Shown here: positions 1,634 to 26,718 of the stretch, piece after piece
How positions within the stretch are numbered: position 1 is the first letter of the stretch
Layout of the letters: every line of letters begins with the position of its first letter
Source of the DNA: Pseudoxanthomonas sp. NC8
GTDB taxonomy: Bacteria > Pseudomonadota > Gammaproteobacteria > Xanthomonadales > Xanthomonadaceae
DNA: 64,000 bases
NCBI GenBank assembly: GCA_025232375.1
Contig: CP060419.1
Coordinates: forward strand, 3,037,001-3,101,000
Direction: 5' to 3'
Program-made: the position numbers and the translations under genes
The notes under the pieces: model-generated
What the model was told of the DNA's origin: nothing
The model's input: only the letters and a program-made list of their open reading frames with translations
The model's database searches: none

Positions 1634-3496
1634 ATGGCCGCACGAGAAAACGCCTCACTGCCGGAGGATTCGGCTGCGCGCCAGCGGCTGCGCGCCGAAA
1701 CTCCGCCACCGCAATACTGGCGCCGCTGGGCCCAGGATGCGCAGCACGACGACGCAACGGAACAGGCCGGCGGCGAACCGCCGTCTGCACGCACCCCCGC
1801 CCCGGGCCCGACGACCTCCGGCCCGCCCGGGCAGGAAGCGGCCGCCGAGTCGCCCTACCGCATCCTCATCGTCGAGGACGACCGCACCCAGGCGCTGTTC
1901 GCGCAAAGCGTGCTGCATGGCGCCGGGATGAAGGCCGAGGTGCAGATGCAACCGGAGGGCGTGATCGAAGCCATCGGCCGCTTCGATCCGGACCTGATCC
2001 TGATGGACCTGCACATGCCCGGGCTGGACGGCATGCGCCTGACCACGCTGATCCGGCAGCAGCAGGGATTCCAGCTGCTGCCGATCGTGTTCCTGACCGG
2101 CGATCCCGACCCGGAGCGCCAGTTCGAGGTGCTCGAAAGCGGCGCGGACGACTTCCTGACGAAACCGATCCGCCCGCGCCACCTGATCGCCGCCGTCTCC
2201 AACCGGATCCAGCGCACCCGCGCCCAGCTGCGCCAGCCGTCGGCCTCGACTAGCACGATGCTGCGGAGCCACCCGGAGACCGACCGGCAGCAACCCGCGG
2301 CTGGCTGCTGCAGCAGGTCGACCAGGCCTTGGCTGATCGCGCCCGCGGCGGCCTGTTCTTCATCGAGATCGCCAGCGCGCTGGGACTGCGCGAGCGCTAC
2401 GGCTATGCGGCCTTCGAACGGCTCATGACCGCGGCGGGCGTCTGCCTTTCGCGGATCGGCGCTCCGGCGCCGGTCGCGCGCCTGAACGACAACAGTTTCG
2501 TGACCCTGGCCCGCGACCTCGACGAGTCCGAGCTCGGACAGCATGCCCAGCGCCTGCGTGCCGGACTGGCCGAGCAGGGCTTTCCGGTGCGCGACGAGGA
2601 GCAGGTGCAGCTGCGCAGCGCCGTCGGCTATACCGCACTGTCGATCGGCTTCGAGGGCGCCGGCCCGGCGCTGGAAGCCACCGAGCGCAGCGCGCTGGCC
2701 GCCCGCCTGCACAGCGACGGCGTTGCCGCGTACGTACCGCGCAGCGACACCGAGGCGCAGGAACGCATGGCGATGCTGGAGGGACAGCTGGAGCTGGCCT
2801 ACCAGCCGATCGTCGCGGTGGCCGGCAACGAACAGGCCCAGTACCAGGTACTGCTCCGCCTGCGCCAGCCCGACGGTACGCTGCTGTCGGCCGGTAAGGT
2901 CGTGCCCGCGGCCGAAGCCAGCGGGCGCATCGCCGACCTCGACCAGCAGGTCATGGAACACGCGCTGGACATGATCGTCACGCGCACGACCGCCGGCAGC
3001 CCGCTGCGGCTGTTCGTGTCGCAGTCGCCGCGCACCCTGGCCCGCGAGGCCTTCGCCGACTGGCTGCTGCAGACGATCGCCGCACGCGGCATCGACGGCA
3101 CCTCCGTGGTCATCGACCTGCGCCTGGGCGATGCGCTGATCCACAGCGTGACCTGGGCGAATTCTGTCGCCGGTTGATGGGCGCGGGCGTGCAGTTCTGC
3201 CTGAGCCAGTTCGATCCGGGTCCGGACGCCGACGCACTGCTGGGCCAGCTGCCGCTGAGCTACGTCCGCATGGCCGGACGCTTCGCCGGCGCGCACGCCG
3301 ACGCGCAGTTGCGTGACCAGCTCCGCAGCACCATCGACCAGGCCCATCGCCTGGGCCTGCAGGTGATCGGCCAGCAGATCGAGGACCCGCAGGCCGCCGC
3401 GGCGATGTGGATGGGCGGCATCGACTACATCCAGGCAACCTGGTGCACTCGGTCGGCACCGAGCTCGACTTCGACTTCCAGAACGCGGTGCTGTGA
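1634..3496 (+). CDS. Response regulator with degenerate GGDEF and EAL domains
   Basis: About 620 residues after joining three frames. Residues 1-72 are a Pro/Ala-rich linker. Residues 75-190 are a receiver domain with the acidic pair EDD (81-83), the phospho-acceptor D125 in LILMDLHMPG and K177 in FLTKPI. The middle section is a GGDEF-like fold whose signature is LNDNSF, so cyclase activity is unlikely. The C-terminal EAL-like domain has YQVLLRL where catalytic enzymes have E-A/V-L, lacks the DDFG metal motif (SQFDPG instead) and lacks the KxD lysine, so it should not hydrolyse c-di-GMP and may instead be a receptor. Frame changes occur near 2280, 3160 (CCTGG context) and 3436 (CCAGGGC reads CCAGGC). 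The stop overlaps the start of the hybrid kinase (TGATG), so they are coupled and probably one signalling unit. Confidence 0.8.
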
Positions 3497-6062
3497 TGCC
3501 GGCACCGGCACCGGCGCAGCGCCGTGTCTGGCCCGTGCTCGCGGCGATGGCCGGCGCATGCACGCTGCTGGCAATCGGCCCAGGGCTGAGCGGGAATGCC
3601 TCGGCATCATGGGGGACCGTGTCGGCGGCCTGGCCTTGGCCACGCTGGTGTTCACCCTGGGCGCGGTGGTGTCCAGCGGCGCCTGGGCGCGCGACCTCAA
3701 CGAGGCCAATGCCCGGGCCGCCGCCGCCGAGGACGAATGCACCCTGCTGCAGCGTGACGTCAACCGCCACGACCAGCTCGAGCAGCAGTTGTTGCAGGCC
3801 AAGCGCGCGGCCGAGTCCGCGGTCCTTAGCCAAGGGCGAATTCCTTACCACGATGAGCCATGAGATCCGCACCCCGCTCAACGGCATCATCCCCATGCTG
3901 GACCTGGTGGCACGCGGCACCCTGGCTCCCGACCAGCGCGAGATGCTGCGCACCGCGCACGAATCCTCGCTGCAGCTGCTGCGAATCGTCGATGACATCC
4001 TCGACTACTCCAAGCTCGAAGCCAACCGGCTGGAACTGGAGATCACCAGTTTCAACCTGCGCGAGCTGCTGGAAGCGGTGCTGCTGCTGATGCAGCGGCA
4101 GGGCGAAGGCAAGGGATTGCACCTGGAACTGAACATCGACCCGAACGTGCGCCTGCCGGTGCGTGGCGATCCGGTGCGCCTGCGCCAGGTGCTCACCAAC
4201 CTGATCGGCAACGCGCTCAAGTTCACCGAGCGTGGAGGCATCTACCTTGGAGTGCGCCGCCTGGGCGAGACCGCGGCCCAGCACATGCTGCGCTTCGAGG
4301 TCCGCGATACCGGCATCGGCATCGGCCACGCGCAGCAGGCACGGCTGTTCCGCGCCTTCACCGGGCCGACGCCTCCACCACCCGGCTTTACGGTGGTACC
4401 GGTATAGGCCTGGCGATCTGCAAACGCATCGTCGACCTGATGGGCGGCCGCATCGGCGTGCAGTCCGAACCGGGCCAGGGCTCGACGTTCTGGTTCGAGA
4501 TCCCGCTGCTGAAAGTCATTGGCGACGTGCAGATCCGGCAGACCGCGCATGACGCGCGGCGGGTGCTGGCGATCACCCCGAACCTGCGCCAGCGCCAGCG
4601 CATCGCCCTGCTGCTGCCCAACTGGGGCATGTCCGTCAGCATCGTCGAGACCACCGGGAGGCGCTGGAACGCCTGCGCCAGCAGACCACCCCTGGGGCAG
4701 CCGGCCAGCTTTGTCGCCGTGGTCGCCGACTACGACGGCCTGCGCCACAGCGCACGCGCGCTGCATCGCGCGCTGACGCGCACGCCCGCATACGCCAACG
4801 TGCGACTGCTGTGGCTGTACGGAGATGAGGAGATCGCCGAGGACCTCCGCGAAGGGACGAGCATGCTGCCCCGCCTGGCACCCGATACGGACTTGCGCAG
4901 CGCCCTGCTTGAGCCCCTGCCCGCAGCCGAAGTGGCCAGTAGCGCCCCCGAACCGGCGCCGGTCGCGCTCCCCGCACCGGAACCCACCCCCTCCGAGCCG
5001 GCGCATCCCATGCCGCCGTCACGGCTGCTGCTGGTCGAAGACAACCCGGTCAACCTGCTCGTGGCGCAGAAGCTGCTGTCCGTGCTCGGCTACGAATGCG
5101 ATACCGCATCCAACGGCGAGGTCGCGCTTTCGCACATGGCAAGCGGCAGCTACGACCTCGTGCTCATGGACTGCCAGATGCCGGTGCTCGACGGCTATTC
5201 GGCCACCCGTCGCTGGCGTGAGCACGAAGCCGCGCAGGCCCCGGGCCGACGCCTGCCGATCGTGGCGATGACCGCCAACGCCATGGCCGGCGACCGCCAG
5301 CGTTGCCTGGATGCGGGCATGGACGACTACCTGTCCAAGCCGGTGGCGCGCGAGCAGCTCGAAGCCTGTCTGCGCCGCTGGCTGCGCACGGCGCCGGCGC
5401 GCAGCGCCGCCCCGCGCCCGCCGGAGCCGTCCCTCGACGCCGGTGACACACCGCCCGCGCCGATTTCGGAACCGGACGTGCCGGCAGCAGCCACGATCGC
5501 AGCCCCGGCAGTCCCCGCGTCGGTAACCGGTGCGGCAGCCGCGGGTCCTGCGCCGGTGACTGCGGGCCCGACGGTACCCGCGGTGTCGATCGAACCGGAC
5601 ATGCCCATCTTCGTTCCTGCAGCCACCGCTGCGCCGGCGACAGAGGCACCGGCCATCGAGGATGCGCCATCGTCGCAGCTGCCTCCGCCGCCGGTGCTCG
5701 AGCCGGAGATGCTGGACGAACTGCGCGAGATCGCCGGCGACGAGGCGCTGACCATCGTCAACCTGTTCCTGGAAGACGCGCCGCGTCTTGTCCGCCTCAT
5801 GGAACAGGCGTCGGCAATCCCCGACATGGAAATGATGCGCGAGGCGGCGCACGCGTTGAAATCATCCAGCGCCAACGTCGGCGCACTGGCGCTATCGGCC
5901 GCGGCCAAGCGCATCGAGCTTGGCGCGCGTGCACGCGCCCTCGACCGGCCCGCGGTGGCCGTCGCCTTGCTGATCGCCGAATTCGCGCGCGCGCGCGTGG
6001 CCTTGCAGGGCTGGCTCTCGACCGCTTCCGCGGCTCAGTCCTCGAGCTTGCTCAGCAGGTAG
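3496..6062 (+). CDS. Hybrid sensor histidine kinase (HisKA-HATPase-REC-Hpt)
   Basis: About 855 residues. The N-terminus has two hydrophobic segments (around [14 protein letters not shown] and [16 protein letters not shown]) and a short coiled coil ([15 protein letters not shown]). The catalytic core shows the H-box [13 protein letters not shown], the N-box [15 protein letters not shown], the G1 box DTGIGIG and the G2 box [20 protein letters not shown] receiver domain follows with [15 protein letters not shown] and the acceptor Asp in [13 protein letters not shown]. After a long Pro/Ala linker there is an Hpt domain with the phospho-His in [15 protein letters not shown]. No periplasmic sensory domain is visible. 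Frame changes lie near 3590, 3830 and 4362; at the last, ACCCAGGCC reads ACCGGGCC and breaks QADAS. The 3' end overlaps the convergent bfr gene by 28 bp. The partner is probably the coupled receiver/EAL-like protein upstream. Confidence 0.85.
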
Positions 6063-17899: not shown

Positions 17900-20669
17900 T
17901 CATGCGCTGGCGACCTCGCGCGCGAGCCGGGTCAGCTGCGGAACGCAGGAACCGCAGACCGTGCCGCAGCCCAGGCGCTGCTTGAGCGCGGGCACGTCGG
18001 CGCCGCCGCGCACCTCCGCGCGGATCGCAGATTCGGTGACCTTATGGCGGCACACGCACACCACCGGGTCGCGGGCGACCTCGGCCACCGCCGAGAACGC
18101 GCCCAGCCGCGGCCCGCGCCAGTTGCCACCGGCCAGCGCGGTACGCAGCAGCGATTCGCCGCCGGGCTGCGTATCGATCCAGAGCAGGCCGTCGACGAAG
18201 TTGCTGCTTTCCTCGCTGCGTAAGGCCACGCGCTTGAGCAGGCCGCGGCGGGCGTCGCGGTACTCCAGCGTGTCCGTGCCGGCGGCCAGCGCCAGCGCCG
18301 CGTCCAGCGCCGCCAGCCACTCCGCCGGCATGGCTTGGCCGGCAGCTGCGTGCATCACCAGTAAGGCGCTGCCGTCTTGGGCGGCCGGATCAGGCTGCAG
18401 CGAGAGCCCCGCGTAGCCGCACTCCCTCAGCAGCGGCTGCACCGCCGCACGCAGCGCGAGCACGTCGCCACGGCGCGCGGCCAGCAGGTGCCACCCGAAC
18501 TCGGCCTTCTCCACCCGCACCGCCGCGTGCTTGAGCTCGGGCTGGCGCGAACGCGCGTCGAAGGCCGGCTGGCTGACCTCGTTGATGCCGCCGCTGGACA
18601 GGTACTGCCCGCTCCAGTGCATGGCCGCGAACACCGTGCCCGATCCGACCTCGTCGGACAGCTCCAGTGGCAGCACCAGTTCGCCGCGCTTGCTGGACAC
18701 GCGCACCAGCTCGCCGGCCTTCAGGCCGCGCCGCACCGCGTCGTCCGGGTGCATGCGCAGGCCGGGCTCGGGGCTGTGCGCGAACAGCGCCGGCACACGC
18801 CCGGTGCGCGACATGCCGTGCCACTGGTCGCGCAGCCGGCCGGTGATCAGGCGCAGCGGATAGCGCGCCGAGGTCGGCTCGGCCACCGGCCTGTATGGCG
18901 TGGCATGGAAGCGCGCGCGGCCATCGGCGGTGGCGAACACGCCATCGGTGTAGCGGCGCGCCTGCCCCTGCGATCCGCCGGCCGGGAACGGCCACTGCTG
19001 CGGACCCTCGTCCTCCAGCCGTGCGTAATCCAGCCCACCGATGTCCAGGTCGCGGCCGACCGTGAGCGCGCGATGCTCCTCGAAGATCGCTGCCGGCGCG
19101 TCGGCCCGGAACAGCGGCTCGGTGCCCGGCGCGCCCAATCGCGCCTCGATCCGGCGCGCGACCTCGCGCACGATCCACCAGTCCGGCCGCAAACGCGGCC
19201 CGCGGCCGGCACCGCGGCACGCACGCGCGAGATGCGGCGCTCGGAGTTGGTGACCGTGCCGTCCTTCTCGCCCCAGGTACTGGCCGGCAGCAGCGCATCG
19301 GCGTAGGGCACCGTGTCGGTGTCGGCGAAGGCCTCCTGCACGACCACGTACTCGGCGCGCTGCAGCGCCTCGCGCGCTTGGCCGATGTCGGGCATCGAAT
19401 GGACCGGGTTGGTGCAGGCGATCCACACCGCCTTGACCTTGCCGGCGCGCACCGCCTCGAACAGTTCCACCGCCGCCAGCCCCGGCTTGCCCGACAGGCT
19501 GCCCGGGGCCAGCTTCCACAGCGCCTCGACCTCGGCGCGGTGGTCCTCGTCGGTGATCTCGCGGTGCGCCGCGAGCATGGTCGCCATGCCGCCGACCTCG
19601 CGCCCGCCCATCGCGTTGGGCTGGCCGGTGAGCGAGAACGGGCCGGCGCCGGGACGGCCGAGCTGGCGCGTGGTAAGGTGCAGGTGGATCAGCGCGAGGT
19701 TCTTGTCGGTGCCGTGCGCGGACTGGTTCAGGCCCATGCAGTACAGCGACAGCGCCGCCGGGCTGCGACCGAACCATTCGGCGGCGGTGACCAGGTCCTG
19801 CGCCGGCACGCCACAGATTTCGGCGGCCATCCGCGGCGTGTAGTCGCGCAGCAGCTGCTTGAGGTCGGCGAAACCGGTGGTGTGCGCGGCGATGAACGCC
19901 TCGTCCAGCAGGCCCTCCCACATAAGGTGGTGGAGCATGCCGTTGAACAGGGCCACGTCGGTGCCGGGCTGGATCGCCAGGTGCAGGTCGGCCATGGCCG
20001 CCGTATCGGTGCGGCGCGGATCGACCACGATCCAGCGCACGCCCGGATCGCGCGCCTTCGCCTCTTCCAGCCGGCGGAACAGCACCGGATGCGCATAGGC
20101 GGCATTGCTGCCGGCGAACAGCACGGTCTTGGCGTGCTCCGGGTCCTCGTAGCAGGTCGGCGGGCCGTCGGCGCCGAACGCCAGCTTGTAGCCGGTCACC
20201 GCGCTGGACATGCACAGGCGCGAGTTGGTGTCGATGTTGTTGGTGCCGAGCAGGCCCTTGGCCAGCTTGTTGAAGACGTAGTAGTCCTCGGTCAGCAGCT
20301 GCCCGGAGATGTAGAACGCGACCGCATCGGGGCCGTGCCGCTCGACGATGCGCGCCAGCCGGTCGGCCACCGTGTCCGTGAGGCCCCAGTCGACCGGCCG
20401 CCGCGGATCCTGGCGGCGGCTGCGCAGCTCCGGCACCAGCACGCGCCCCTGCGTGCTGCGCGCGCTGTCGGTAAAAGGGTAAGGCCCTTGCTGCACAGGC
20501 GGCCGAAGTTGGCCGGGTGCGCCGGGTCGCCTTCCACGCCGGTGATGCGCTCGCCGCCGGCGGTGCGTTCGCTGTGGACCAGCACGCCGCAACCGACGCC
20601 GCAGTAGCAGCAGGTCGAGCGCGTGGTGCGGCGCTCGCCGGGTTGCAACGGGGCGCCGGCACCGTCCAT
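17900..20669 (-). CDS. nasA: Assimilatory nitrate reductase catalytic subunit
   Basis: About 922 residues. The N-terminal [4Fe-4S] motif is CCYCGVGCGVLV...LCSKG. Mo-bis-MGD domains follow (NNIDTNSRLCMSSAVTGYKL with the Mo-ligand Cys, GSNAAYAHPVLFRR, GLNQSAHGTDKN, SLTGQPNAMGGREVG). The C-terminal BFD-like domain CVCRHKVTESAIRAEV...CGTVCGSCVPQL binds a [2Fe-2S] cluster, as in Klebsiella-type NasA. There is no twin-arginine signal, so it is cytoplasmic, in contrast to NapA. It reduces nitrate to nitrite for NirBD. Frame changes lie near 20475 (a double CCCTG site) and 19205. Its ATG overlaps the nirD stop by one base. Confidence 0.93.
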
Positions 20670-21040
20670 CAGGCAGCCACCTCCGCTGCGGCGACGCCGT
20701 CACCCGCCGCGGCCAGCGACAGCGCCAGCCACACGTCGCCATCGCGCAGCTGCACCGGGTACTTGCGCGCGCAGCCCACGTCCGGCGCGCAGGCCTGGCC
20801 GCTGTCGAGCTGGATGTTCCAGCCATGCAGCGGGCAGGTCACCGTATCGCCGGAGACAATGCCCTGCGACAGCGGTCCGCCCTTGTGCGGGCAACGGTCG
20901 GCCAGCGCGAACACGCGCGCGGCCGCCGGCCGGAACAGGGCGATGTTGTCGCCGCCCGCGCACTCGAGCACGCGCGAGCCCAGCAGCGGGATGTCGTCGA
21001 TCGTGCAGACACGGACCCAGGTTCCATCGGCTGCGTGCAT
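20669..21040 (-). CDS. nirD: Nitrite reductase small subunit NirD (Rieske-like)
   Basis: 123 residues, no frame change. Rieske-type ligands: CPHKGGPLSQG and CPLHGWNI, with the family ends LLGSRVLEC and KYPVQLRDGDVWLAL. NirD supports the NADH-dependent sirohaem nitrite reductase NirB in the cytoplasm. It starts 1 bp after nirB and overlaps nasA by one base. Confidence 0.94.
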   Translation of the reverse strand: MHAADGTWVRVCTIDDIPLLGSRVLECAGGDNIALFRPAAARVFALADRCPHKGGPLSQGIVSGDTVTCPLHGWNIQLDSGQACAPDVGCARKYPVQLRDGDVWLALSLAAAGDGVAAAEVAA

Positions 21041-21041
21041 G

Positions 21042-23517
21042 TCAGTCCTCCAGGGCCACGGCGATCTGCCGGTCGGCGTGCGGTGGGGCCAGCTTCAGCG
21101 GTGCGTACTCGCGTGCCTGGGTGCCCGCGATCCGCGCCGCCCACGGGTCGGGCAGGCCTTCCAGCGCGAACAGCAGCCGCTCGTACAGCGCGACGCGGCT
21201 GGCCGCGTCCTCGACCACCTTCTGCTTGACGTACTCCAGGCCGACACGCTCGATGTAGTGCACGGTGCGGTCGAGGTAATAGGCCTCCTCGCGGTACAGC
21301 TGCAGGAAGGCGCCGGTGTATTCCTTCACTTCGTCGGCGGTCTTCACCTTGCACAGGAAGCGCGCGACCTCGGTCTTGATCCCGCCGTTGCCGCCGACGT
21401 GGATCTCCCAGCCCGAATCCACGGCGATGATGCCGACGTCCTTGATCCCGGATTCGGCGCAGTTGCGCGGGCAGCCGGACACGGCCAGCTTGACCTTGTG
21501 CGGGCTCCACATGTTGGCCAGCATCGTTTCCAGGTCGATGCCCATCTGCGTGCTGTTCTGGGTGCCGAAGCGGCAGAACTCGCTGCCCACGCAGGTCTTC
21601 ACCGTGCGGATCGACTTGCCGTAGGCGTGGCCGGAGTTCATGCCCAGGTCCTTCCAGACCCCGACCAAGGTCTTCCTTCTTCACCCCGAGCAGGTCGATG
21701 CGCTGGCCGCCGGTGACCTTGACCATCGGCACCGCGTACTTGTCGGCCACGTCGGCGATCCGGCGCAGCTCACTGGAGTTGGTCACCCCGCCCTTCATCT
21801 GCGGGATCACCGAGAAGGTGCCGTCCTTCTGGATATTGGCGTGGGCGCGCTCGTTGATGAAGCGGCTCTGCGGGTCGTCCACCGCCTCGCGCGGCCAGGT
21901 CGAGAGCATGTAGTAGTTCACCGCCGGGCGGCAGGTGGCGCAGCCGTTGGGCGTGCGCCATTCCATGAAGGCGTAGGCTGGGCGTGGCTCACGAGGTGGT
22001 GCTCGCGGATGGCCTTGGCGCACCTCGCCGTGGGTCAGGCTTGTGCAGGCGCACACCGCCTTGGTCTTGGGCGTCTCCTGGAAGTTGGAGCCCAGGCAGT
22101 TCATCAGGATCTGCTCGACCAGCCCGGTGCACGAGCCGCAGGAACTGGCGGCCTTGGTGTGCTTCTTGACCTCGTCGACGGTGAACAGGCCCTGCTCGCG
22201 CACCGCCTTGACGATCGTGCCCTTGCACACGCCATTGCAGCCGCAGACCTCGTCGCTGTCGGCCATCGTGGCCGCGCGGTCCTGGCCGCCGGTGCCGGCA
22301 TCGCCCAGCGCGGTCTCGCCGAAGGCCAGCGTGTCGCGGCGGTCGCCGACCACGCTGCCATCCTTGATCTGCTTGAAGTACCTAAGGCGCCGTCGCCGGT
22401 ATCGCCATACAGGCAGGCACCTACCAGCTTGTCGTCGCGGATCACCAGTTTCTTGTACAGGCCACCGGCCGGATCGGAGAGCACGATCTCCTCGGTGCCC
22501 TCGCCGCCCATGAAATCGCCGGCCGAGAACAGGTCGATGCCGGTGACCTTCAGCTTGGTCGACGACACCGAGCCCTTGTAGATGCCGATGCCGTAGGTGG
22601 TAAGGTGGTTGGCGCAGATCTTGGCCTGCTCGAACAGCGGCGCGACTAAGGCCGTAGGCGATGCCGCGATGGCTGGCGCATTCGCCGACCGCATACACGC
22701 GCGGGTCGTAGGTCTGCAGCGTGTCGTTGACCACGATGCCGCGGTTGCAGTGGATGCCGGACGCCTGCGCCGGGGCCGTGTTCGGACGGATGCCGGCGGC
22801 CATCACCACCAGGTCGGCCGCAATCTCCTCGCCGTCGGAGAAGCGCACCGCGGCGACCTCACCGTCGGCATTGCCGACGATCTCGGTGGTGGAGGTGTTG
22901 AGGCGGAAGTCCAGGCCGCGCTCGGCCAGCGACTTCTCCAGCAGCGCGCCGGCAACCGGATCGAGCTGGCGCTCCAGCAGCCAGCCGGTAAGGTGGACCA
23001 CGGTCACTTGCATGCCGCGCAGCTTCAGGCCGTTGGCCGCCTCCAGCCCGAGCAGGCCACCGCCGATCACCACCGCATGCTTCTTCACCTTCGCGGAGTC
23101 GATCATCGTCTGCGTGTCGTGGATGTCGCGATAGCCGATCACGCCCTTCAGGTCCTTGCCCGGCACCGGCAGGATGAACGGCACCGAGCCGGTGGCCAGC
23201 AGCAGGCGGTCGTACTCCGCCTCGGTGCCGTCGGCGGCGACCACCTTGCGGTGGACGCGGTCGATCGCGGTGATCTCCTTGCCCAGGTGCAGGGTGATGC
23301 CGTTCTCGGCGTACCGGGACAGCGGGTTGAGCACGATCTCGTCGAAGGTCTGCTCGCCGGCCAGCACCGGCGAGAGCAGGATGCGGTTGTAGTTCGGATG
23401 CGGTTCGGCGCCGAACACGGTGATCTCGTACATGTCCGGCTGCAGCTTCAGCAGCTCCTCGAGCGTGCGGATGCCGGCCATGCCGTTGCCCACCACCACC
23501 AGTCTTGGCTTCTTCAT
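21042..23517 (-). CDS. nirB: NADH-dependent nitrite reductase large subunit NirB (frameshifted)
   Basis: About 825 residues. The N-terminal FAD/NAD domain starts PRLVVVGNGMAGIRTLEELL and contains AVVIGGGLLGLEAANGLKL. A BFD-like [2Fe-2S] segment has CGCNGVCKG...SSCGSC. The C-terminal half is the ferredoxin-like and sirohaem domain with CVGSEFCRFG and SGCPRNCAESG, the four Cys that bind [4Fe-4S]-sirohaem. It reduces nitrite to ammonium. Frame changes: 22650 (GGCCTGGTC reads GGCCTTAGTC), 22384 (GCCTGGTAC reads GCCTTAGGTAC, restoring the conserved WYF), about 22000, and 21667 (an extra T in CCTGG). Each repair recovers a family motif, so the gene is probably intact in the organism. Confidence 0.94.
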
Positions 23518-24003
23518 CGTTCGTTCCGGTTGTGCGCCCCGGTAAAGGTGCGGGTCATGAAAGTGCTGAAGGGGTCTTCGACGTAGCCGTCGAACGGACC
23601 GCAGACATCGAAGCCATAGCGCCGGTAGAGCGCGCGCGCCGGCGCGAATTCGGGCTGGCTGCCGGTTTCCAGGCTCAGCCGGCGGTAGCCGCGCTGCTCG
23701 GCCTCGTCGAGGATCCGCCGCATCAGCGCACCGGCCACGCCGCGGCCACGATGGGCCGGCGTCGTGCGCATCGACTTGATCTCGCCGTGTCCGCGGTCCA
23801 GCTCGCGCAACGCCGCGCAACCGCGCAGCTCGCCGCCGGCCCACGCGCTCCAGAAGGTGACGTCGGCCCGGCGCAGCTTGGGTAAGGTCCAGCGCGTGCA
23901 CGCTCTCCGGCGGCGAGAGCCGGTACATGTCGTCCAGGTGCTCGCGCAGCAGCGCGGCGATCTCCGGGCCGGTCAGCGGGTCAACCACGATCTGCAGGTC
24001 CAT
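23514..24003 (-). CDS. GNAT family N-acetyltransferase inside the nas operon
   Basis: About 162 residues: [60 protein letters not shown] with the acetyl-CoA-binding R/Q-x-x-G-x-A loop (RGRGVAG), and [19 protein letters not shown]. This is a complete GNAT fold of the YsnE/PA4866-like kind; substrate unknown. It lies between narK (3 bp gap) and nirB (4 bp ATGA overlap), so it is cotranscribed and translationally coupled with nitrite reductase. One frame change near 23882 (CCTGCCC reads CCTTACCC). Why an acetyltransferase should be tied to nitrate assimilation is not clear. Confidence 0.85.
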
Positions 24004-24006
24004 GGC

Positions 24007-25215
24007 TCAGACCCGCGCCGTACCGGCCGCGGCCCAGTGCATGCGCCAGCGCTGCTTGACGCCGATAAGGACAGCGAGGCGGCCAGCGCGACGCCGGCGA
24101 ACAGCCACAGGCCCGGCGCGTAGGAGCCGGCGTGCTGTTTGACCACGCCCAGTCCGGCCGCGAGCAGGAAGCCACCGACGCCGCCGGCCATGCCGATCAG
24201 GCCGGTCATCAGCCCGATCTCGGCGCCGAAACGCTGCGGCACCAGCTGGAACACCGCACCATTGCCCGCACCAGGCACAGCAGGGTGAGCACGAACAGCG
24301 CCACCGTCGCGGCCGCGCCGCCCACGCCCAGCGCCGCGGTGGCGACCAGCACGGTGACGGCGACATAGACCATCTGCAGCGAACGCGTGCCGCCGATGCG
24401 GTCGGCGATCACCCCGCCGAGCGGGCGCATCAGCGAGCCGGCCAGCACGCAGGCCGCGGTGGCCCAGCCGGCGATCTTCGGCGCGAAGCCGAACTCGTCG
24501 TGGAAGTAGCCCGGCAGCGCGCTGGCGAACCCGGCGAAGCCGCCGAAGGTGATCGCGTAGAAGAACGTGAACCACCATGAGTCGCGGTTGCCGACCAGCA
24601 CCTTGGCGTAGTCGCCGAGGTTCTTGCGCGCCACCGGCACCGGCGCGTCCTTGGTAAGGCTGGCGAACACCACCAGCACCAGCACCAGCGGGATGCAGGT
24701 AAGGCCGAACACGTTCTGGTAGCCGAAGGCAGTGGCCAGCACCGGCGCGAACAGCGCGGCCAGCACCGTGCCCGAGTTGCCGGCCCCGGCAATGCCCATC
24801 GCCGTGCCCCTGGTGCTCGGGCGGATACCAGCGCGAGGCCAGCGGCAGGGCGACCGCGAAGGACGCACCGGCCACGCCCAGCATCGCGCCCAGCAGCAGC
24901 ACCTTGGCCGAGGCTGTCCACGCCGACCCGCCAGGCCACGAGCAACGCCACGATCACCACCGCCTGCGCAAGCATGCCGGTGCGCCGGGCGCCGATGCGA
25001 TCGGCCAGCAGGCCGAGGAACAGCCGCAGCACCGCGCCGCACAGGATCGGCACGGCGACCATCAACGCGCGCTGCTGGGTATCGAGCTGCAACGCCTGGG
25101 CGATCTGCACCTGCAGCGGACCGAGCAGGTACCAGACCATGAAGCTCATGTCGAAGTAGAGGAACGCCGACAACAGGGTGGGTGCGTGTCCGGCTTTCCA
25201 GAAGGATCGGTTCAT
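24007..25215 (-). CDS. narK: Nitrate/nitrite transporter of the NarK/NasA MFS family
   Basis: About 403 residues with 12 predicted helices. It opens [20 protein letters not shown], then [25 protein letters not shown] and the nitrate signature [18 protein letters not shown], followed by [19 protein letters not shown] and a second signature [19 protein letters not shown]. These two Gly-rich signatures define nitrate/nitrite porters. The branch is that of assimilatory porters, consistent with being first in the nas operon. Frame changes: 24908 (CCAGG reads CCAAGG), 24808 (CAGGGC reads CAGGGGC), about 24275 and 24065 (CCCTGATC reads CCTTATC). Confidence 0.92.
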
Positions 25216-25267
25216 GCCACGCCATCTCCGTATGGGCCGCCCGTGGGGGAGCGGTGATGTGGGTACG

Positions 25268-25302
25268 AAAAAAAAGCGCCCCCGGTTCGCACCGGAAGAC
25301 GC
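25268..25302 (-). terminator. Intrinsic terminator in the nas operon leader
   Basis: On the minus strand the RNA can fold GCGUCUUCCGG against CCGGGGGCGC around a UGCGAA loop, followed by eight U. It lies 53 nt upstream of the narK ATG, so it ends transcription before the operon unless relieved. The 5' arm overlaps the last hexaloop hairpin at 25297-25310, so the two folds exclude each other. Confidence 0.85.
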
Positions 25303-25379
25303 CGTTGTCTGTGGGTGGCCTGGCCGTCGTTGGCCGGGCTACCGGGTCAGGTTGTGGACGGGCACGCCGTTGTGTCCGT
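25297..25379 (-). promoter_or_regulatory. ANTAR-target leader RNA: three hexaloop hairpins
   Basis: On the transcribed minus strand there are three stem-loops with six-base loops. The first (25358-25379) is ACGGACAC-AACGGC-GTGCCCGT, eight pairs with one A/C mismatch. The second (25319-25338) is CCCGGCC-AACGAC-GGCCAGG, seven pairs with one mismatch. The third (25297-25310) is AGAC-AACGGC-GTCT, four perfect pairs. All loops fit AACGRC, with A at position 1 and G at position 4, the known recognition rule for ANTAR-domain antiterminators. The third hairpin uses the bases of the terminator 5' arm, so NasT bound to the hairpins should allow read-through into narK-nirBD-nasA-cobA. nasT itself is encoded 1.4 kb upstream. 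Confidence 0.85.
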
Positions 25380-25391
25380 ATCCATGACTAC

Positions 25392-25406
25392 GCAACCGCC
25401 ATGCCA
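25392..25406 (-). promoter_or_regulatory. Sigma-54 promoter of the nas operon
   Basis: The minus strand reads TGGCATGGCGGTTGC, matching the -24/-12 consensus TGGCAYG-N4-TTGC with GG and GC exactly ten bases apart. Predicted start of transcription is about 25380, immediately before the first hexaloop hairpin at 25379, so the leader would begin directly with the regulatory RNA. Confidence 0.75.
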
Positions 25407-25514
25407 ACTTGTGGCGCAGTGCAGCATCGCGCTGAAACAGCAGTGATTTCAGCCGCTTGTGCCGCCCACCCGACGATCCTGGACGACACCGGCGGCGCCG
25501 GCCGCGGGCGCGCA

Positions 25515-25531
25515 TGCACCGGAGCGGTGCG
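25515..25531. promoter_or_regulatory. NtrC-like enhancer site
   Basis: TGCACC-GGAGC-GGTGCG matches the NtrC dyad TGCACC-N5-GGTGCA with one mismatch. It lies about 110 bp upstream of the sigma-54 promoter, a usual distance for NtrC activation by looping. Together they predict induction by nitrogen limitation, with nitrate specificity added by the NasT leader. Confidence 0.65.
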
Positions 25532-25643
25532 GCTTGGCACTGTCTGCGTGCATCTCGCACCATCACTGCGCACGCGAGTGAGGCGGCCTCCGGAGCGGTG
25601 GCGCCGGGTACCACGCGCGCCGCGGTCGAGCCCGCCAGGCGGC

Positions 25644-26718
25644 TCAGGACGCCGCGGACGGATCCATGGCGGCCTCGCCGGCCGTGGCCTCCACGCGCAC
25701 GCGCGCGGCCGCTTCGCGGTAGCTGTCGAGCCGGTACACATCGGCCAGCCATGCGTCGTCGCCATCCTCGGGGGCCGCCGGTGGCAGCCAGCGCCAGCGG
25801 CGGAACTGCTGCAGGAACCAGCGCCCGTTCGCCAGCCGCGGCAGGTTCGCCGCGCCGCCCGCATGGAACTGCAGCGCCTCGTCCGCGGCCACGTCCGCAC
25901 GTGGCACCAGGCCGGTGGTAAGGCGCGCCGCCGGCAGGCCGATCGCCTCCGGCGCCGCCAACCACTGCGCGGCCTGCTCGCGATTCGCGACCGAGGCGTC
26001 GAGCCAGCGACAGGCCTCGAGCACCGCCGCGGTCAGCGCGGTTGCGAGCTCGGGCTGCAGCGCGGCGAAGTCGCGACGGCAGGCCAGCACCTTTTCCGGA
26101 TGGCCCGGTAAGGCCCTGGCCGCTGCGCAGCACGCGATGGCCTGCGCCGATCGCTCGGCGTGTTCGCCCCACGGTTCGCCGGCGCAGAAGCCGTCCAGTT
26201 CGCCGTCGGCCAGCGCCTGCGGCATCTGTGGCGGCGGCAGGGTCACCGCTTCGATGTCGCGCATCGGGTCCACGCCCTGCCGCGCCAGCCAGTCGTACAG
26301 CCACAGCGCATGCGTGCCGGTCGGGAAGGTCTGCGCGAACACCGCGCGCCGCGGCAGCGCGCGCAGCGCGTCGGCCAGCGGGCGACCGTCGGCCAGCGCC
26401 GCGGCCAGCGCCGACGACACGGTGATCGCCTTGGCCGTTGCGGTTCAGGCCGAGCAGGATCGCCAGGTCCGCGCGCGGCCCACCGATACCGGTCTGCACC
26501 CCGATCACCAGCGCCTCCATCGCATGGGCCGCGTCCAGTTCACCGGACAGCAGGCGGTCGCGCAGCCCCGCCCAGGACGCCTGCCGGTGCAGCCGCAGCT
26601 GCAGGCCATGGCGCTGGTCCAGGCCGAGCCGGACCGCCACGTGCAGCGGCGCGGCGTCGAGCAGGGGCATGAAGCCGACGTCGAGCGTGCGCGGTCCGGC
26701 AGGTGCGGGGGTCGTCAT
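25644..26718 (-). CDS. nasS: Nitrate-sensing NrtA/CmpA-like protein NasS
   Basis: About 358 residues. It begins TLDVGFMPLLDAAPLHVA and contains HAMEALVIGVQTGIGGPRA, FPTGTHALWLYDWLARQG, DGFCAGEPWGEHAERSAQ and LACRRDFAALQPEL, the NrtA-type nitrate-binding fold. No signal peptide is present, as expected for a cytoplasmic NasS rather than a transporter component. In other proteobacteria NasS sequesters NasT until nitrate or nitrite binds. One frame change at about 26433 (GGCCAGGCG reads GGCCAAGGCG). It is 37 bp downstream of nasT and the start at 26718 follows directly from the operon layout. Confidence 0.88.

Follow-up and report, generated by a model that had tools for sequence, protein, structure and literature searches.

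The control region in the gap between nasT-nasS and narK-nirBD-nas, on the minus strand of the 64,000-nucleotide stretch of Pseudoxanthomonas sp. NC8 DNA analyzed here (the window), probably serves as the attenuator leader of the narK-nirBD-nas operon, in which transcription would be started by NtrC and sigma-54, read-through would be permitted by NasT, and an extra hairpin at the 5' end of the transcript, H1, would act as an added recruitment hairpin; this reading is assigned a probability of about 0.8. Homology gives good support to the view that the region is an antitermination leader of an already-known kind, started from an NtrC/sigma-54 promoter and controlled by NasS-NasT. What is new is the third hexaloop, which is a recurrent variant of a known device in which H1 has a putative role.

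NasT leaders are reportedly the subject of Romeo et al. (2012) and Wang et al. (2012). The targets of ANTAR proteins are described as carrying two hexaloops in which A1 and G4 are important, and the terminator shares sequence with the distal one of the two hairpins (PMC3369931, PMC3369936). NasS and NasT come apart when nitrate or nitrite is present, and the Paracoccus nasA leader is bound by NasT (PMC3795266); in Pseudomonas the leader has a promoter of the NtrC/sigma-54 type (PMC12830290). For the use of two hairpins by a dimeric ANTAR protein there are competing models, a simultaneous one having been followed by a successive one: the structure of EutV with RNA, in which the protein holds G4 flipped out, and the accompanying assays suggest that both loops cannot be held by one dimer and that binding proceeds successively rather than simultaneously, from the recruitment hairpin to the antiterminator (PMC8934654). 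A conserved natural leader with three loops, together with relatives that have lost loop 1 or loop 2 and kept the stem, constitutes a ready-made test set for this problem, and the findings below suggest that searches which employ a two-loop definition overlook a recurrent three-loop layout.

Organization of the control region

The features of the region and the adjoining genes are collected in Table 1. The NtrC-like dyad that the earlier note had claimed for this region was recovered as an exact match to GCACC-N5-GGTGCA (0 mismatches, 25515-25530, minus strand), with no other exact match in the window; genome-wide the pattern has 12 matches at 10 places, compared with 4 for the reversed control pattern. 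All dyads were scored against what we take to be the NtrC consensus. Two weak dyads lie 21 and 41 bp upstream of dyad 1, so that three NtrC-like dyads, 20-21 bp apart, stand in tandem (25515-25572) instead of one. The well-spaced -24/-12 promoter of the earlier note is likewise exact and has the correct GG-GC spacing, and its start at the foot of the first hairpin agrees with the promoter geometry, in which transcription begins 12 nt past the C of the -12 element.

Table 1. Features of the control region and adjoining genes in the window, upstream features first
Feature	Positions	Strand	Basis or remark
nasT, receiver-like + ANTAR antiterminator, 191 aa	26756..27331	-	Pfam matches
nasS, NMT1-like nitrate/nitrite sensor, two frames here	25644..26718	-	Pfam NMT1_2
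Dyads, sigma-54 box, start, H1, H2, H3, terminator	25572 down to 25268	-	transcription order
NtrC-like dyad 3, weak	25556..25572	-	9/12 fixed bases
NtrC-like dyad 2, weak	25536..25552	-	9/12 fixed bases
NtrC-like dyad 1	25515..25531	-	11/12 fixed bases of the assumed consensus
sigma-54 promoter TTGGCAT-N5-TTGC (-24/-12)	25392..25407	-	sole exact match in window
Predicted transcription start	25380	-	12 nt past the -12 C, promoter geometry
H1, extra loop at transcript 5' end, hexaloop AACGGC (25366-25371)	25358..25379	-	folding
H2, hexaloop AACGAC (25326-25331)	25314..25343	-	4+3+3 bp, two 1x1 mismatches
H3, antiterminator, hexaloop AACGGC (25301-25306)	25297..25310	-	4 bp stem
Intrinsic terminator stem	25276..25303	-	mutually exclusive with H3
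U8 tract of terminator	25268..25275	-	sequence
narK-type nitrate/nitrite MFS transporter	23973..25215	-	TIGR00886 matches on pieces

The three AACGRC stem-loops proposed earlier are all present at the positions given for them, with the A1 residues of H1, H2 and H3 at 25371, 25331 and 25306, and the description requires one amendment: the H1 stem of this genome has 3 bp next to the loop, followed by an A.C mismatch and 4 bp more, unlike the 8 continuous pairs of the alignment consensus. The sharing of bases between the U8 terminator and the third hairpin stands as claimed. The 5' arm of the terminator consists of G4-G5-C6 of loop 3 and the whole 3' arm of H3 (shared positions 25297-25303), and because everything from G4 of loop 3 onward is thus used twice, the terminator and H3 cannot coexist. 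When successively longer prefixes of the transcript are folded, those of 88-104 nt have H3 in their minimum-energy structure, and those of 108 nt and longer have the terminator in its place; H1 and H2 persist once the terminator is complete, with H3 melted.

A chance origin of the hairpins is ruled out by a shuffle test, in which two AACGRC hairpins occurred in 0/5000 dinucleotide shuffles of the 131-nt leader and one occurred in 49/5000, compared with three in the real leader; under a loose rule (A..G.., stem of at least 3 bp), three or more hairpins occurred in 19/5000. Only five AACGRC hairpins with stems of at least 3 bp are found in the whole 64 kb on both strands, three of them in the leader. 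The folding energy of the leader is ordinary (z = -1.56, with 11/200 shuffles folding as well), so the evidence resides in motif, position and conservation and not in stability. By the definition of an ANTAR target, which asks for at least two hairpins with A1/G4 hexaloops, stems of at least 3 bp and a cognate ANTAR protein in the genome, the leader has three such hairpins, the distal of which overlaps the terminator, and NasT is present. The linkers of the folds, 3 nt between H2 and H3 and 14 nt between H1 and H2, fall inside the range of 2-25 nt, which stems from actinobacterial ANTAR targets (PMC8164766).

Regulatory proteins and neighbouring genes

The product of nasT matches the Pfam families ANTAR (66.5 bits, cut-off 27.3) and Response_reg (48.3 bits) and the PDB chains 1s8n (Rv1626), 6wsh (which we take to be EutV) and 1qo0 (AmiR); it is the sole ANTAR match found in the genome, and its nearest named NasT rows belong to Lysobacteraceae and [Pseudomonas] boreopolis. 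By our own mapping from the 6wsh alignment (offset 2), NasT keeps the EutV residues R142, K143, E160, Y164 and M172, of which E160, Y164 and R142 coordinate G4 of the loop and M172 is essential (PMC8934654). The same mapping places K, G and K at N173, R175 and R177, three residues whose joint change abolished binding by EutV (PMC8934654), and R at K147, and these differences count against a simple transfer from EutV.

The two pieces of NasS match Pfam NMT1_2 with 138.8 and 84.4 bits, and nasS is a single 360-aa frame in a same-genus relative (L195). The first gene after the leader is narK, with a broken frame and an approximate downstream end; pieces of the NarK transporter, NirB, NirD and assimilatory nitrate reductase lie downstream. 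An rpoN-like (sigma-54) gene scores over its cut-off, in pieces, while the NtrC-like protein reaches 507.6 bits on its main piece compared with a cut-off of 558.6, the gene being split. There are in fact two rpoN-like genes, both in pieces (G000:C1:1230415-1231810 and 1755507-1756884). The genome is one contig of 3.54 Mb with a completeness of 57% and many broken frames, so many of the breaks are probably sequence errors; within the window the frames of nasA, nirB, narK and nasS are broken (17900-26718), and rpoN and ntrC are split as well.

Proposed mechanism

The combination of the dyads, the -24/-12 box, three AACGRC hairpins, a terminator and an adjoining NasT gene points to a NasS-NasT antitermination leader; these sequence elements, their conservation and covariation and the gene context are observed, and from them we infer all steps of binding, regulation and kinetics as well as what H1 does. 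When nitrogen is limiting, the tandem dyads, which lie some 110-165 bp upstream of -24, would be occupied by phosphorylated NtrC, and sigma-54 polymerase would be driven to begin transcription at about 25380. As long as nitrate is absent, NasT would be held by NasS, the terminator would form, and transcription would end at roughly 105-112 nt. Once nitrate or nitrite is present, NasS would release NasT, which would dock on the hexaloops and stabilize H3, whose loop and 3' arm the terminator needs, and the polymerase would read through. The earlier note had proposed the same start under nitrogen limitation and the same read-through, and both find support in the anatomy of the leader, with NasT and NasS encoded upstream and nitrate/nitrite genes downstream.

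The hairpins H2 and H3, with an A1-to-A1 distance of 25 nt compared with 24 nt between A29 and A53 of the eutP pair (PMC3369931), would form the ordinary recruitment/antiterminator pair of ANTAR leaders. H1 would be an added recruitment hairpin which, as the first structure to leave the polymerase, offers NasT an earlier docking site, and from H1 NasT, or a second dimer, may serve H2 and then H3. The graded or cooperative binding that the earlier note had suggested for a third hexaloop is speculative, and the work on EutV with RNA speaks for successive binding (PMC8934654).

Relation to described leaders

Among the closest described systems is the NalA/P11 leader of nirBD in Pseudomonas (RF00625), which resembles the window in its sigma-54 promoter, NtrC control and NasT antitermination (PMC12830290) and whose consensus has a hexaloop overlapping the terminator, but which differs in having two hexaloops in the part of the consensus shown. 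The narK RNA motif (RF03032) also begins in the sigma-54 box and has one hexaloop hairpin followed by a GACAAAGACGUC segment corresponding to H3, but it is without H1. The eutP, nasF and amiE leaders share the A1/G4 hexaloops and the terminator overlap and are described with two hairpins (PMC3369931, PMC3369936). The nasA leader of Paracoccus denitrificans, which is NasT-dependent and, as here, lies between nasTS and the structural genes, has two hairpins (HI and HII) that were named and mutated, and the mutated NtrC site in that organism precedes nasT, unlike the site in the window (PMC5424462). The EutX/Rli55 RNA has three hexaloops, a dual motif with an extra one, as in the window, but it is said to sequester EutV and is not the nitrate attenuator of an operon (PMC8934654).

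In the available parts of the open-licence literature, we found no description of a nitrate leader with three hexaloops, and PMC8164766 makes no mention of third, tandem, three or more than two hairpins. In the search with ANTAR-target RNA models that the earlier note had proposed, the Rfam models score the window below their cut-offs, which counts against the present reading: 25.5 bits compared with a gathering cut-off of 70 for P11, and 24.6 bits compared with 43.2 for narK (covering positions 31-70 only).

Conservation in the family and the putative role of the extra hairpin

From a comparison of the leader with 247 genomes of the family, a number that includes the window's own, at least 26 loci were taken as leaders (L009-L032, L035, L036), with L034 and L037 left outside. 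Background matches from BLAST and the covariance search, such as L033, L038, L060 and L089-L091, were rejected as having no such leader by eye. The alignment, A1, comprises 25 leaders (L025, a near copy of L024, was omitted) in 24 distinct rows; a “hairpin” of the automatic consensus fold formed by the -24/-12 sequence (columns 3-5 with 13-15) was discarded as promoter and not RNA. The overall layout, a matching sigma-54 box and the H3 core recur in all 26 leaders. All 26 leaders have a dyad with at least 9/12 fixed bases, a weak one in several, at a distance of 112-149 nt upstream from the -24 T; in 22/26 there is one at 144-149 nt, and dyads often form a pair about two helical turns apart. 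In 6/26 leaders the best dyad has just 9/12, a score matched by 11-24% of shuffles there, and the dyad at the usual place in L032 is likewise 9/12.

The paired structure is conserved along with the layout. Among the 24 distinct rows, H1 pairs in 93.2% of cells with both-sided changes at 6/8 pairs, and the outer helix of the terminator pairs in 98.3% of cells. Over all three helices together, the covariation score is reached by 0/500 shuffles and the number of both-sided pairs by 3/500, and pairing is destroyed when the partners are slid by 1-3 columns. Loop 3 is AACGGC in 24/24 rows, loop 2 is a hexaloop in 23/24, and loop 1 has A1 in 23/24 and G4 in 22/24, with positions 5 and 6 more variable. 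The conservation of three loops in relatives, which the earlier note had proposed to check, is borne out, with all three intact in 21/24. Its description of a third hexaloop as unusual holds for the literature, which describes two, but not for the sequences, given the 21/24 and the three-loop leaders of other Proteobacteria; the possibility that the third loop is peculiar to this genome is contradicted by the family and class leaders alike. The spacing between loops 1 and 2 is 39-41 nt in 21/24 (range 36-42) despite indels in the linker, and that between loops 2 and 3 is 18-26 nt across rows.

Three leaders have lost a hexaloop and kept its stem, that of H1 in L029 and L032 and that of H2 in L013, in whose genome (L196) the nasT, nasS and narK frames are open by eye. 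Since these 3/24 leaders lie beside open nas frames, three loops are not essential everywhere. Loss from H1 or H2 with H3 always kept fits a successive model, from recruitment to antiterminator, with the reservation that the family leaders were found by similarity and that H3, their most conserved part, is therefore favoured by the sampling. As a separate observation, the CAA trimer 3' of H1 (25352-25354) is near-invariant and is TGA in L029 and L032, the two leaders without loop 1.

The same losses raise the tentative alternative that any one upstream hexaloop suffices and that H1 and H2 are interchangeable recruitment sites, as the open frames beside the leaders without loop 1 or loop 2 would allow. 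Both loops are nevertheless kept in 21/24 leaders, which suggests selection on each, and in eutP a linker longer by 20 nt abolished antitermination (PMC8934654).

It is unlikely that H1 is mainly a hairpin for 5'-end stability whose AACGRC loop is incidental or a relic. In its favour, the distance from the C of TTGC to the start of H1 is 12-14 nt in 25/25 aligned leaders, which places H1 at about +1 to +3, the very 5' end of the transcript, and the H1 stem stays in L029 and L032 without its hexaloop. Against it are the retention of A1 and G4 of loop 1 in 22/24 rows while positions 5 and 6 vary more, and three loci of the wider class (L045, L048, L049) in which the extra hexaloop lies just downstream of nasT; no sigma-54 box was found there in the 280-base stretch scanned, so that in these loci the transcript probably does not begin at H1.

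A role of H1 and H2 as a spare pair or decoy, by which the terminated RNA of about 110 nt titrates NasT, is improbable. The persistence of H1 and H2 and the melting of H3 upon completion of the terminator, the sequestration of EutV ascribed to EutX (PMC8934654) and the cataloguing of the Pseudomonas homologue by Rfam as an sRNA (P11) speak for it, and the H1-H2 spacing of 40 nt, compared with 24 nt in the eutP pair (PMC3369931), speaks against it. More doubtful still is a combination in which the third hexaloop provides two devices, a docking ladder from H1 to H2 to H3 and a terminated RNA that titrates NasT with H1 and H2; were it true, the nitrate threshold would go up with each aborted round, the switch would be sharper than in two-loop leaders, and lineages could tune it by gain or loss of H1. 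The reading of H1 as an added recruitment hairpin remains the preferred one.

Three-loop leaders beyond the family

A covariance model, R1, built from A1, matched 36/369 genomes of the class, two of them of the window's genus. Because R1 was made from mostly three-loop leaders, its class-wide matches favour three loops. Of the 28 class loci (L041-L068), 25 were read (L046, L066 and L068 were left out), and eight, in six families, have three hexaloops ahead of the terminator (L045, L048, L049, L050, L051, L053, L062, L064); many others have two. In the window's own genome, R1 gave just one match at E <= 0.01, and a search for further leader targets with the narK family gave one credible match, this leader, the next best having E 0.44. 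No match to the leader was found in plasmid records at E 1e-5.

Owing to this bias of R1, a second survey was taken by NasT protein only, using the best 80 named NasT loci of a longer list. Leader-like matches were called in 42/80 loci, 46 in all, of which L132:777 looks spurious and L159 is counted twice; no leader was called in the family members L099, L101 and L102 (L101 and L102 are incomplete), and L115 was unscored. At least two strict hexaloops upstream of the antiterminator were present in 12/46 matches, whereas shuffling of the upstream stretches leads one to expect a total of 1.76 strict hexaloops. Ambiguous cases among the 12 are L141 and L148, and L172 probably arose by chance; the remainder come from [Pseudomonas] boreopolis, Xanthomonas euroxanthea, Luteimonas, a Hydrogenophilales MAG, Chromobacterium haemolyticum, BD1-7 bacterium, Methylotenera, Paramagnetospirillum and Candidatus Thiodiazotropha taylori. 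Such three- and four-loop leaders in other Proteobacteria indicate that the third loop is recurrent. In Pseudomonas, all 7 leaders called (6/7 loci) are two-loop. The leader of Candidatus Thiodiazotropha taylori (L134, about 4826-4898) has four hexaloops, the antiterminator included.

A quick NasT tree of 44 rows was labelled by locus as 12 three-loop, 27 two-loop and 4 ambiguous, partly by eye; the labels of L100, L104 and L142 came from inspection in the survey, and family members without a scored leader are absent. The three-loop label changes 6 times on this tree, with at least 3 changes forced by starred branches, and the window, five kin rows and Chromobacterium form an all-three group on a starred branch. 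From this pattern the third loop looks old in the window's lineage and appears to have been gained or lost repeatedly.

Some genomes have two NasT-type leaders a few kb apart (L126, at 2701 and 4651; L113, at 4654 and 7836). In one genome of the same genus there is a second sigma-54 leader with three hexaloops (L194, about 1840-1960, minus strand), which precedes a formate/nitrite transporter gene (211.1 bits, PF01226) followed by an N-formylglutamate amidohydrolase gene.
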